The notes beneath the pieces were generated by a model. That model was not told where the DNA came from, searched no databases, and was given only the letters and a program-made list of their open reading frames with translations. Below are positions 2,651 to 8,065 of a stretch of 22,856 nucleotides of DNA, piece by piece; within the stretch, counting starts at the first letter, position 1, and each line of letters begins with the position of its first letter. Made by a program: the position numbers and the translations under genes. Source of the stretch: a virus; the IMG/VR virus record IMGVR_UViG_3300010401_000082, positions 1 to 22,856 of that record, one strand, 5' to 3'.

Positions 2651-2923
2651 ATGACCTACTACGCCCAGGCCGCCTTCCCCAAGCAGATCCGAAAGCGTGA
2701 CCCAAAGCTCCTCGCCCGGATCCGAATGCGGCCCTGCCTCATCTGCTTTAAGCGGCCGGTCGAGGCTTCGCATATCAAGTCGCGCGGTGCGGGCGGGGAT
2801 GACTCTGAGGGGAACGTGGTCGCCTTGTGCCTAGCTCATCATAGGGAATGGCATAAGCTCGGGTGCGACTCGATGGCCGAAAAATATCAGGCGCTCGCCG
2901 AATTTTTGAGGGTTCATTCATGA
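2651..2923 (+). CDS. HNH-like phage nuclease / zinc-binding protein
   Basis: This 90-residue protein has a Cys-x2-Cys knuckle (RPCLICFK), then ASHIKSRGAGGDDSEGNVVALCLAHHREWH. The pattern C-x2-C ... SHI ... N-V-V-x-L-C-x2-H-H ... H is the treble-clef/HNH arrangement seen in small phage nucleases of the DUF968/Ref type, where the His of 'SHI', the Asn and the HH pair form the metal site. Such proteins are usually encoded near phage recombination genes and may resolve or nick DNA structures. The exact subfamily is uncertain. The ATG start has GAGG four bases upstream. It overlaps the excisionase-like gene by ATGA. Confidence 0.75.
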   Translation: MTYYAQAAFPKQIRKRDPKLLARIRMRPCLICFKRPVEASHIKSRGAGGDDSEGNVVALCLAHHREWHKLGCDSMAEKYQALAEFLRVHS

Positions 2924-3276
2924 GAGTAGCGGTGATGGAGTATCCAATTCTGGAGAGGTTCTCGGGGGATGCGAGGATTTCACGGACAACCAAGGGGATG
3001 GCGGACGTGGCAAAGCAGAAGCAAGCGGAAGTTCAGCGGGACGGGGTGGAGTTCCAGGGAAAGGTGCGCCTCCTGACTGAGGATCAGGTGAGCCAATGGA
3101 CCGGGGTGCCAGTCGCAACACTCAAATCGATGCGGACCAGGCCGGGGAAAGATCCAATTCCCTTCACCAAATTCGGCAGGACCGTCCGTTACCGCGAGGA
3201 CCTGCTCTTGAAATGGATCGAGCGCAATACTTTCGACGATACCGAGCAGAGCAGGGAGGCCCACGGTACGGGATGA
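2920..3276 (+). CDS. Excisionase-like HTH protein
   Basis: This is a 118-residue protein whose C-terminal half reads VRLLTEDQVSQWTGVPVATLKSMR, then PFTKFGRTVRYREDLLLKWIERNTF. It is a MerR/AlpA-type winged helix-turn-helix (HTH_17) as found in recombination directionality factors. It lies three bases before the integrase start, the classic xis-int order, so control of excision is likely. It could also double as a transcription regulator. The ATG at 2920 is chosen because it overlaps the preceding stop (ATGA) and has GAGGG eight bases upstream. A second in-frame ATG at 2998 would give a protein limited to the core domain. Confidence 0.78.
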   Translation: MRVAVMEYPILERFSGDARISRTTKGMADVAKQKQAEVQRDGVEFQGKVRLLTEDQVSQWTGVPVATLKSMRTRPGKDPIPFTKFGRTVRYREDLLLKWIERNTFDDTEQSREAHGTG

Positions 3277-3279
3277 GCC

Positions 3280-4416
3280 ATGAAGTCAAGGCGGTACCCC
3301 AATCTCCACAAATACTCGACCTCTCCCTTCTGGGTCTTCCGCAAGTATTCGAGCGTGAAGCGCCAGGAATTTGTGAAGAGCACCCGGGAGGACAAGGACG
3401 AGGCCAAGGCCTACAAGAAGGGCCTCGAGCTTTTCAACGAATGGCTAGGGACCTCTTTGCCGTCGGGGCGCGACATCCTGATCCGCGATATCGCTCGGGC
3501 AGTTCTGGCGGGGAAGGAGCGGAAGGAAAAGACTACCTACGATACTGCCGCCAACCAGATTCGGAATCACATCATCCCAGCCTTTGGCCATCTGAGGCCC
3601 AACCAGATCACGCCTCTCAAGTGGGACCAATACGACGAGCTCGAGCGGCGCAAGGGCAAGCGGTCCAAGACCCAACCGACTCAGCGAGTGCTAAAGGAGA
3701 TTCTCAGGCGCGCTCAGGAGGAAGCGCTAATTCGAAACCTTCCCAAGCTCCGGAACCACGACGCCCCGCCCGAGGCGCCCCGCTACCTCGAGTACCAGGA
3801 GCGTCGGAGGATCTTCCACCAGGCCGGCCTACCCGGGAAGCTCTGGATGTTCACCATGTCCAAGCAAGGCCCGCGGCCGCGCGAGCTTCTGCGCTACCGC
3901 TGGGACATGCTGCGGTGGAGCACCGAGAAATGGACTGGGAAGTCCGGCCGGCCCAGGACGCGGATCCAGGCCGAGATCGACATTCCTGGCGCTATTACGA
4001 AGAACAAGACTCCGCGCACGATCGCGCTCAACTCGCGTGTTGCTCGGATCCTGGCCTGGATGCTTCGCAAGGGCGCCCAGTGGAACCTGACCCAGGCCGA
4101 GCTGGACCCCCTCAGTCCCAAGGAGCGCCGCGGCCGCAAATGGATCGTCGAGTCGGTCTCAAGCCAGTTTATCTTCCCGTCGCCCATCAACCCTGGGAAA
4201 CCCATGCTCGAATACAAGACGGCCTGGGAGACGGCCTGCTCGAAGGCCCAGATCACGGCAGTGCCCTACAACCTCCGGGACACGGCCATTACCGACATGC
4301 TGAATCGGGGGGAACAAAGCTCGTTCATTGGGAAGTACGTCCAGAACAGCGCCGCGATGATCGACCTCAAATATGCGGTCCTCATCCGGAAGTCGATGCG
4401 TAAGCTCGCCGGGTGA
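3280..4416 (+). CDS. int: Tyrosine recombinase (phage integrase)
   Basis: This 378-residue integrase cuts and joins attP and attB. The layout is a basic N-terminal arm-binding region (1-65), a core-binding SAM-like domain (about 66-160) and a catalytic domain (about 165-378). Visible catalytic positions are Arg199 in GPRPRELLRYRW, Lys241/243 in ITKNKTPRTIAL, Arg333 in YNLRDTAITDML, and the likely nucleophile Tyr365 in MIDLKYAVL. Two usual histidines look replaced: the HxxR box reads Tyr-Asn-Leu-Arg (Tyr330), and the later His/Trp position reads Gln-Asn in YVQNSAAM. The gene ends about 110 bases before the tRNA-derived att core. The 435-residue frame at 3096-4403 is a shadow in another phase. 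Confidence 0.92.
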   Translation: MKSRRYPNLHKYSTSPFWVFRKYSSVKRQEFVKSTREDKDEAKAYKKGLELFNEWLGTSLPSGRDILIRDIARAVLAGKERKEKTTYDTAANQIRNHIIPAFGHLRPNQITPLKWDQYDELERRKGKRSKTQPTQRVLKEILRRAQEEALIRNLPKLRNHDAPPEAPRYLEYQERRRIFHQAGLPGKLWMFTMSKQGPRPRELLRYRWDMLRWSTEKWTGKSGRPRTRIQAEIDIPGAITKNKTPRTIALNSRVARILAWMLRKGAQWNLTQAELDPLSPKERRGRKWIVESVSSQFIFPSPINPGKPMLEYKTAWETACSKAQITAVPYNLRDTAITDMLNRGEQSSFIGKYVQNSAAMIDLKYAVLIRKSMRKLAG

Positions 4417-4452
4417 GGCCGGCCATCATGAAATCACGTACTTGGCTGGACG

Positions 4453-4473
4453 TTCGTAGAGTTGTCGTAGACT
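4453..4473 (+). repeat. Left arm-type integrase repeat pair
   Basis: TTCGTAGA and TCGTAGACT share CGTAGA, with starts 11 bases apart (4455 and 4466), one helical turn. The identical composite recurs at 4687-4707. This suits binding by the integrase N-terminal domain; binding is inferred. Confidence 0.65.
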
Positions 4474-4523
4474 GTGTGTCTAAACGGCCACTTTTCTCTA
4501 GAAATTCTGAACACGGTGCATTG

Positions 4524-4568
4524 CTTCTAAGCATGAGGTCGCAAGTTCGAACCTTGCCGGGGTCGCCA
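4524..4568 (+). tRNA. 3' half of tRNA-Arg(UCU), att core
   Basis: From the anticodon loop CTTCTAA (anticodon TCT at 4526-4528) the sequence follows a tRNA exactly: 3' anticodon stem GCATG, five-base variable loop AGGTC, T stem GCAAG/CTTGC around TTCGAAC, acceptor strand CGGGGTC, discriminator G and CCA. The 5' half is missing: no GACCCCG acceptor strand, D arm or full anticodon stem precedes it. This is the expected remnant carried by a phage that recombines within the anticodon loop and restores the host tRNA on integration. It is not a functional tRNA by itself. Confidence 0.8.
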
Positions 4569-4618
4569 TCAAAATACATCTATAACACAGGCACTTATTG
4601 CGAATACCGGCGGTTATC

Positions 4619-4669
4619 TAGCCCCTGTTTAGCCCCTCCTTCGTTTGCATTCATTTGCAGTGGTTTGCA
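4619..4669 (+). repeat. Helically phased accessory repeats in attP
   Basis: TAGCCCCT occurs at 4619-4626 and 4630-4637 (11-base period). TTTGCA occurs at 4644-4649, 4654-4659 and 4664-4669 (exact 10-base period). The clusters lie between the att core and the right arm-type pair. They could bind the excisionase-like protein or host bending proteins. The phasing is seen; the binder is unknown. Confidence 0.5.
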
Positions 4670-4808
4670 CGAAACCCGCCCATCCATTCGTAGAATATTC
4701 GTAGACTCAAAGCCTCTACGCTCGACCTGGAAATGCGCTGAGTGCGGCAACGAAAAGCCGGCTTCCTGGGGGCATTGCCTCCAATGCGGCTCCCGGGAGG
4801 TCGCATGA
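4665..4808 (+). CDS. Small zinc-ribbon protein (start uncertain)
   Basis: The 3' part of this frame encodes TWKCAECGNEKPASWGHCLQCGSREVA, a compact C-x2-C ... C-x2-C zinc ribbon. It ends in an ATGA overlap with the next small gene, so it looks real and joins the operon after attP. The 5' end is unclear: there is no in-frame ATG nearby. TTG 4665 is the best visible candidate but lies inside the attP repeats and has no good ribosome site. The same frame is open back to 4413, but that stretch is the attP region. Function unknown; small zinc ribbons often bind nucleic acid or partner proteins. Confidence 0.45.
   Translation: MHETRPSIRRIFVDSKPLRSTWKCAECGNEKPASWGHCLQCGSREVA
4687..4707 (+). repeat. 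Right arm-type integrase repeat pair
   Basis: This is a second copy of TTCGTAGA-N4-TCGTAGACT, in the same orientation and spacing as the copy at 4453-4473. Only the four-base spacer differs (ATAT instead of GTTG), so the two halves rather than the spacer are conserved. Confidence 0.65.
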
Positions 4809-7377: not shown

Positions 7378-7763
7378 GCCGGCTAGAAATTCCTCACTGC
7401 CCTTACTGCACCAAGCTATCTGATCTCGTCGGCGGTCTTGCGATCTATCCCCATCGCCCGGACCTGGCCGACAAGCCTTTCTGGCTCTGCAAACCATGCT
7501 CTGCATACGTCGGGTGCCACCCCGGTACTCAGCAGCCGCTGGGACGACTCGCCAATGCCGAGCTCCGAATGTGGAAGCAACGCGCGCATAGGGCTTTCGA
7601 TCCCTTCTGGAAATCCGGCTCGCGATCGCGGAAGCAAGCTTATGCCTGGCTAGCTGAACTCCTCGGGATCCCGGTCGAGGAGACTCATATCGGGATGTTC
7701 GATGTCTATCTCTGCAAGCGCGTCGTCGAGCTCTGCGAGAACAAGCTCAGGAGCGAGCCATGA
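7374..7763 (+). CDS. DUF3268-like zinc-finger protein
   Basis: This 129-residue protein starts with GTG overlapping the previous stop. It reads HCPYCTKLSDLVGG, then FWLCKPCSAYVGCHPGTQQPLGRLANAELRMWKQRAHRAFDPFWKSG, then KQAYAWLAELLGIP and THIGMFDVYLCKRVVEL. The C-x2-C pairs, the 'VGCH...PLG..A' centre, 'AH..FDP.W' and 'HIG.FD' are the signature of the DUF3268 zinc-finger family common in phages and prophages. Molecular role is not established; zinc binding is inferred from the Cys/His pattern. Confidence 0.8.
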   Translation: MSRLEIPHCPYCTKLSDLVGGLAIYPHRPDLADKPFWLCKPCSAYVGCHPGTQQPLGRLANAELRMWKQRAHRAFDPFWKSGSRSRKQAYAWLAELLGIPVEETHIGMFDVYLCKRVVELCENKLRSEP

Positions 7764-8065
7764 GCATGCCGAACGGCGAACGTCGCGAGAACGTCCCCGG
7801 AACGATCTACCTCCTCCACTTCGACAAGCCCTATCGCCATGCCCGGCACTACCTTGGCTGGACCGAAGGCGACTGCCTGGATGATCGCATGAAGACACAT
7901 CGGAGCGGGCGGGGTTCTAAGCTCATGTCCGCCATCAACCAGGCGGGGATTGATTTCACGATCGCTAGGCTTTGGAGCGGAACCCGGCACGATGAGCGGA
8001 AGCTCAAGAACGGGAAGAACGCTGGCAAATGGCTTTGCCCGATTTGCAGGAAGGGGGAGACGTGA
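7760..8065 (+). CDS. GIY-YIG-like phage protein
   Basis: This is a 101-residue protein beginning with GTIYLLHFDKPYRHARHYLGWTEGDCLDDRMKTHRSGRGSKLM, then AGIDFTIARLWSGTRHDERKLKN and a C-terminal CPICRK knuckle. 'YLLHF...ARHYLG' takes the place of the GIY...YIG strands, with Arg in DDRMKTH and a conserved Gly-Arg-Gly-Ser. This resembles the compact GIY-YIG-fold proteins of phages and actinobacterial prophages. Whether it is an active nuclease is unclear: a catalytic Glu in the expected place is not obvious. The ATG overlaps the DUF3268-like gene by ATGA, suggesting a functional pair. Confidence 0.65.
   Translation: MSMPNGERRENVPGTIYLLHFDKPYRHARHYLGWTEGDCLDDRMKTHRSGRGSKLMSAINQAGIDFTIARLWSGTRHDERKLKNGKNAGKWLCPICRKGET

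Follow-up and report, generated by a model that had tools for sequence, protein, structure and literature searches.

Positions 4440-4710 of the window (the whole 22,856-nucleotide stretch of virus record IMGVR_UViG_3300010401_000082) most probably constitute the attP of a temperate tailed phage that would employ a lambda-type (heterobivalent) tyrosine integrase; as judged from the nucleotide sequence, we assign this reading a probability of about 93%. The layout was that of a textbook site, in good agreement with the original prediction of a complete attP: a tRNA 3' half follows the integrase gene, and repeat pairs and phage genes are found on both sides of it. The relevant features, all on the plus strand, were as follows.

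2920-3276, plus strand: DNA-binding protein of the HTH_17/excisionase family, candidate recombination directionality factor (RDF, Xis), from PHROG, Pfam and TIGR matches
3280-4416, plus strand: divergent tyrosine integrase, 378 aa, from Pfam and PHROG profile matches
4432-4444, plus strand: weak IHF-like site AATCACGTACTTG, one mismatch to WATCAANNNNTTR
4453-4473, plus strand: putative left arm-type pair, two TCGTAGA repeats at 11-bp spacing
4524-4568, plus strand: predicted attP common core, tRNA-Arg(UCU) 3' half, from direct sequence reading and comparison with complete tRNA-Arg(UCU) genes
4619-4637, plus strand: two copies of TAGCCCCT at 11-bp spacing, candidate RDF or accessory sites
4644-4669, plus strand: candidate RDF (Xis) array, TTTGCA three times, 10 bp apart, from a shuffle test
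4687-4707, plus strand: putative right arm-type pair, two TCGTAGA repeats at 11-bp spacing

The tRNA-derived core

The 45 bases at 4524-4568 (CTTCTAAGCATGAGGTCGCAAGTTCGAACCTTGCCGGGGTCGCCA) could be read throughout as parts of a tRNA. From 5' to 3', CTTCTAA corresponds to the anticodon loop (UCU; C32-A38 in tRNA numbering), GCATG to the 3' side of the anticodon stem, AGGTC to a variable loop of 5 bases, GCAAG-TTCGAAC-CTTGC to a perfect T-arm and CGGGGTC to the 3' strand of the acceptor stem; the discriminator G and the terminal CCA follow. A tRNA-Arg 3' half extending from the anticodon loop to CCA had been predicted to lie after int, and its position relative to the end of the integrase gene at 4416 bore this out. 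ARAGORN detected no complete tRNA in the window, and the usual tRNA 5' half (TAGCTCAG..GGA.AGAGC, the D-arm half) was absent from it even when three mismatches were allowed.

Complete tRNA-Arg(UCU) genes from phage contigs aligned in register with the core from the anticodon loop onward. Among the 50 tRNAs of the fetched loci, Arg(UCU) genes scored highest against the core, those seven having themselves been fetched by pattern. In an unbiased blast search of the core against plasmids, tRNA-Ile, tRNA-Arg(CCU) and others matched through the T-arm. The T-arm half is thus generic, and the Arg(UCU) assignment depends on the anticodon half only, with the position-34 base that distinguishes UCU from CCU falling at the presumed crossover. 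Judged from the phage copy alone, the target gene is very likely tRNA-Arg(UCU). Immediately to the left of the core stands CATTG, whereas the host anticodon stem, as deduced from the core GCATG, is expected to read CATGC; identity with the host gene should therefore begin at C32. The crossover would probably take place within the anticodon loop, at 4524-4530.

tRNA-Arg(UCU) genes whose 3' halves resemble the core are found in phages (complete in all loci checked), and operators and replication origins also have phased direct repeats. The site might accordingly be viewed as a decayed phage-encoded tRNA gene, the repeats around it serving gene regulation or a replication origin. This explanation is hardly credible, however, because the 3' half, T-arm included, is perfectly preserved as far as CCA and nothing of the 5' half is left, and decay would not be so one-sided; moreover, the core is situated between the repeat pairs, 108 bases past the stop codon of int.

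A weak second likeness to the core was observed at 4769-4805, consisting of GGGGCATTGCCTCCAA, identical to 4515-4530 at 13/16 positions, and after it GAGGTCGCA, which agrees with 4535-4543 at 9/9. It sits in a small open frame bearing a CxxC-CxxC zinc-ribbon pattern (CAECG...CLQCG) and is probably a coincidence. An Rfam search of the attachment region returned a sub-threshold match only, which was dismissed as chance.

Putative arm-type repeats and phased repeats

The pattern TTCGTAGA-N4-TCGTAGACT matched the window exactly twice, once on each side of the core and in a shared orientation. The two copies differed solely in their spacers, GTTG at 4453-4473 and ATAT at 4687-4707 (18/21 identical with the spacer included). 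The claim that a repeat pair of identical spacing flanks the core on each side was hence confirmed, these two being the sole matches in the window. No further copies were detected there with up to three mismatches allowed, and at the same tolerance dinucleotide-shuffled windows gave a mean of 0.04 matches and never two. In addition, apart from the arm pair, a single 21-mer pair in the window agreed at 18 or more positions, and none of 500 dinucleotide shuffles of the 304 bases at 4417-4720 produced a 21-mer pair with 18 matches. The arm centres lie approximately 64 bp to the left and 170 bp to the right of the anticodon loop, and the putative attP measures about 255 bp. In viral_contigs, the arm-repeat pattern gave a single match. 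The 800 bases read around it showed nothing resembling an attachment site, and the match was judged to be chance.

As an addition to the first description of the site, two sets of phased repeats were identified at 4619-4669, all between the core and the right arm: TAGCCCCT starts at 4619 and 4630, and TTTGCA at 4644, 4654 and 4664. None of 2000 shuffles contained three copies of a 6-mer spaced by 10/11 bp, TTTGCA being the only such triple in the window, and likewise none yielded as many 8-mer pairs at this spacing. Sliding windows across the 22.8 kb revealed phased repeats of such type solely at 4619-4669. When the exact phased-repeat test was applied to known att regions, lambda gave none and HP1 gave one, inside its attP. 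The test therefore misses degenerate arm sites, and an absence of exact repeats elsewhere is uninformative. IHF-like sites of the grade found at 4432-4444 numbered three in the whole window, both strands counted. Separately, GAACG occurs three times at 11-bp spacing at 7778-7806, near the start of the open reading frame 7760-8065; as this is coding DNA, the occurrence may be due to chance.

The integrase and excisionase-like genes

The gene order was shown to be excisionase-like gene (2920-3276), integrase gene (3280-4416) and then the attachment site. The product of 2920-3276, for which the start codon ATG 2920 was picked from the sequence, matched PHROG 66 'excisionase and transcriptional regulator' (E 3e-8); its matches to HTH_17 (E 6e-5) and to TIGR01764 excise (E 0.0024) were below the respective cut-offs. 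RDF proteins such as Apl of phage 186 bind direct repeats spaced by 10-11 bp inside att (PMC7498355). Since the spacing of the phased repeats is as in RDF sites and an excisionase-like gene precedes int, the repeats at 4619-4669 are proposed as candidate sites of the 2920-3276 product.

The integrase matched the Pfam family Phage_int_SAM_3 above the cut-off, Phage_integrase below it (E 2e-4) and PHROG 216 (E 1.4e-4). A fold model built from the single sequence was unusable (pLDDT 38). No close relatives were detected in viral_contigs (two scans), phages or plasmids, and the 15 virus records found via the capsid contained no such integrase. Within the catalytic signature R-K-H-R-H/W-Y, motif reading pointed to R199, R333 and Y365 as its likely catalytic residues. 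At the two positions where most tyrosine recombinases have His, motif reading and a weak alignment with XerA placed Tyr330 and Asn356.

These two substitutions bear on the question of activity, for the locus could be a non-functional relic in which the attP is intact and the integrase has been inactivated through its substituted active-site residues. Against this reading, which we regard as very unlikely, the frame is open for 378 aa and R199, R333 and Y365 are apparently retained; the nearly identical arm repeats are, furthermore, what selection would predict. Active tyrosine recombinases with substitutions at these two His positions are known. A more speculative thought, which we consider doubtful, is that the enzyme might represent an undescribed, deeply divergent branch of tyrosine recombinases in which Tyr and Asn have replaced both histidines, and might act on an otherwise conventional attP in a bacterial lineage not yet sampled.

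Genome context, related sites and known systems

To the left of the site lie exonuclease-like, HNH, HTH/excisionase and integrase genes (phage or DNA-metabolism families); to the right, genes for an ASCH-domain protein, several phage families, the large terminase, a portal with a Mu-F domain, the prohead protease and the capsid. Because phage DNA flanks both sides, the site was assigned to attP rather than to attL or attR. The original prediction that this is the attP form is thus well supported, both arms being present with phage genes left and right, past 4710 as well. It could nevertheless be argued that the site marks one end of an integrated prophage (attR or attL) or the junction of tandem prophages, its flanks not being free phage DNA. 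The window is a virus record classed as linear and possibly a fragment, and a tandem-prophage junction would display an identical P-core-P' sequence. This possibility appears most improbable, however, given that both arm pairs are present and that phage genes extend on both sides to terminase, portal and capsid, whereas at a simple attL or attR one flank would be chromosomal.

The search proposed with the original prediction, for bacterial tRNA-Arg(TCT) genes with the same 45-base 3' end, gave no match in 84,980 genomes (genome_contigs). The exact 45-mer was absent from this set, as was a relaxed tRNA pattern in which the loop (UCU), the stem (GCATG) and the acceptor strand (CGGGGTC) were kept fixed, such that hosts changed at these elements would escape it. 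No attB, attL or attR was seen in these exact and relaxed genome searches. The claim that the core gives the host target gene accordingly held in part: tRNA-Arg(UCU) is very likely, on the phage copy, and no host gene was found in the genomes searched.

No related attP was found in the collections searched. The exact 41-mer core had no match in viral_contigs, and the relaxed-core matches in seven viral_contigs were all complete phage tRNA-Arg(UCU) genes, hence not attP. Pseudomonas phage PPpW-3 was ruled out as a parallel attP, its tRNA-Arg(UCU) being complete by ARAGORN. In this phage (positions 1339-1350 and 1469-1545 of locus L114), the complete tRNA-Arg(UCU) adjoins an integrase gene, a lone CCTTCTAAGCAG word standing between the two, and the 3' end of the tRNA, CGGGGTCGCCATCA, is the same as that in the window.

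Among known systems, the closest precedent appeared to be that of Omega and other Cluster J mycobacteriophages, with which the match in layout is almost complete. In Omega and BAKA, attP lies 3' of int and has a 44-bp tRNA-Leu core starting in the anticodon loop, and a plasmid carrying int and attP integrates (PMC3706429). The present site similarly has its attP 3' of a rightward int, a tRNA 3'-half core starting in the anticodon loop, and putative arm-type direct-repeat pairs flanking the core (repeats of about 10 bp in Cluster J). It differs in its tRNA (tRNA-Arg versus tRNA-Leu), in its arm consensus (TGCATAC.. in Cluster J) and in the direction of the candidate RDF gene, which is the same as that of int here and opposite in Cluster J. 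Integration was demonstrated there with the int-attP plasmid, whereas the present site is known from its sequence.

Resemblances to lambda attP (PMC4880445) were found in the order xis-int-attP, in int being transcribed toward attP, in a length of about 250 bp, and in the placing of arm sites (putative in the window) to either side of the core, with accessory sites, likewise putative here, between core and arm. The lambda core, in contrast, is not a tRNA gene, and its five arm sites are more degenerate and unevenly spread; IHF and Fis sites are proven in lambda, as opposed to the one weak IHF-like match here. Direct repeats spaced by 10-11 bp within att are a feature shared with phage 186 and its Apl sites (PMC7498355), which comprise five Apl-footprinted repeats as against two plus three predicted sites of two different words in the window. 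In the Islander collection of 3919 islands, 2083 were anticodon-centred and 3760 had a 3' fragment (PMC4383910). Considering how common such sites are, together with the Cluster J parallel, the attachment site is ordinary in kind.

The lambda integrase is bivalent and bridges core and arm sites, with bending proteins acting between them (PMC4880445). In the mechanism proposed here, the N-terminal domain of the integrase would bind the arm repeats and its catalytic domain the anticodon-stem region. Upon integration, the phage-borne 3' half would rebuild a full tRNA at the attL end, where the right arm and early genes lie, and the displaced 3' half of the host's own tRNA would end up next to int (attR). 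The excisionase-like protein would bind the phased repeats in the right arm and thereby set the direction of the reaction.

The site leaves the general knowledge of attachment sites unchanged and offers a clean, complete example of a well-known type, an int-attP cassette in which the arm and accessory repeats stand out with unusual clarity. It indicates that the phage is probably temperate, and the 45-base tRNA-Arg end would provide a testable host tag for a phage whose only source is an assembled virus record.
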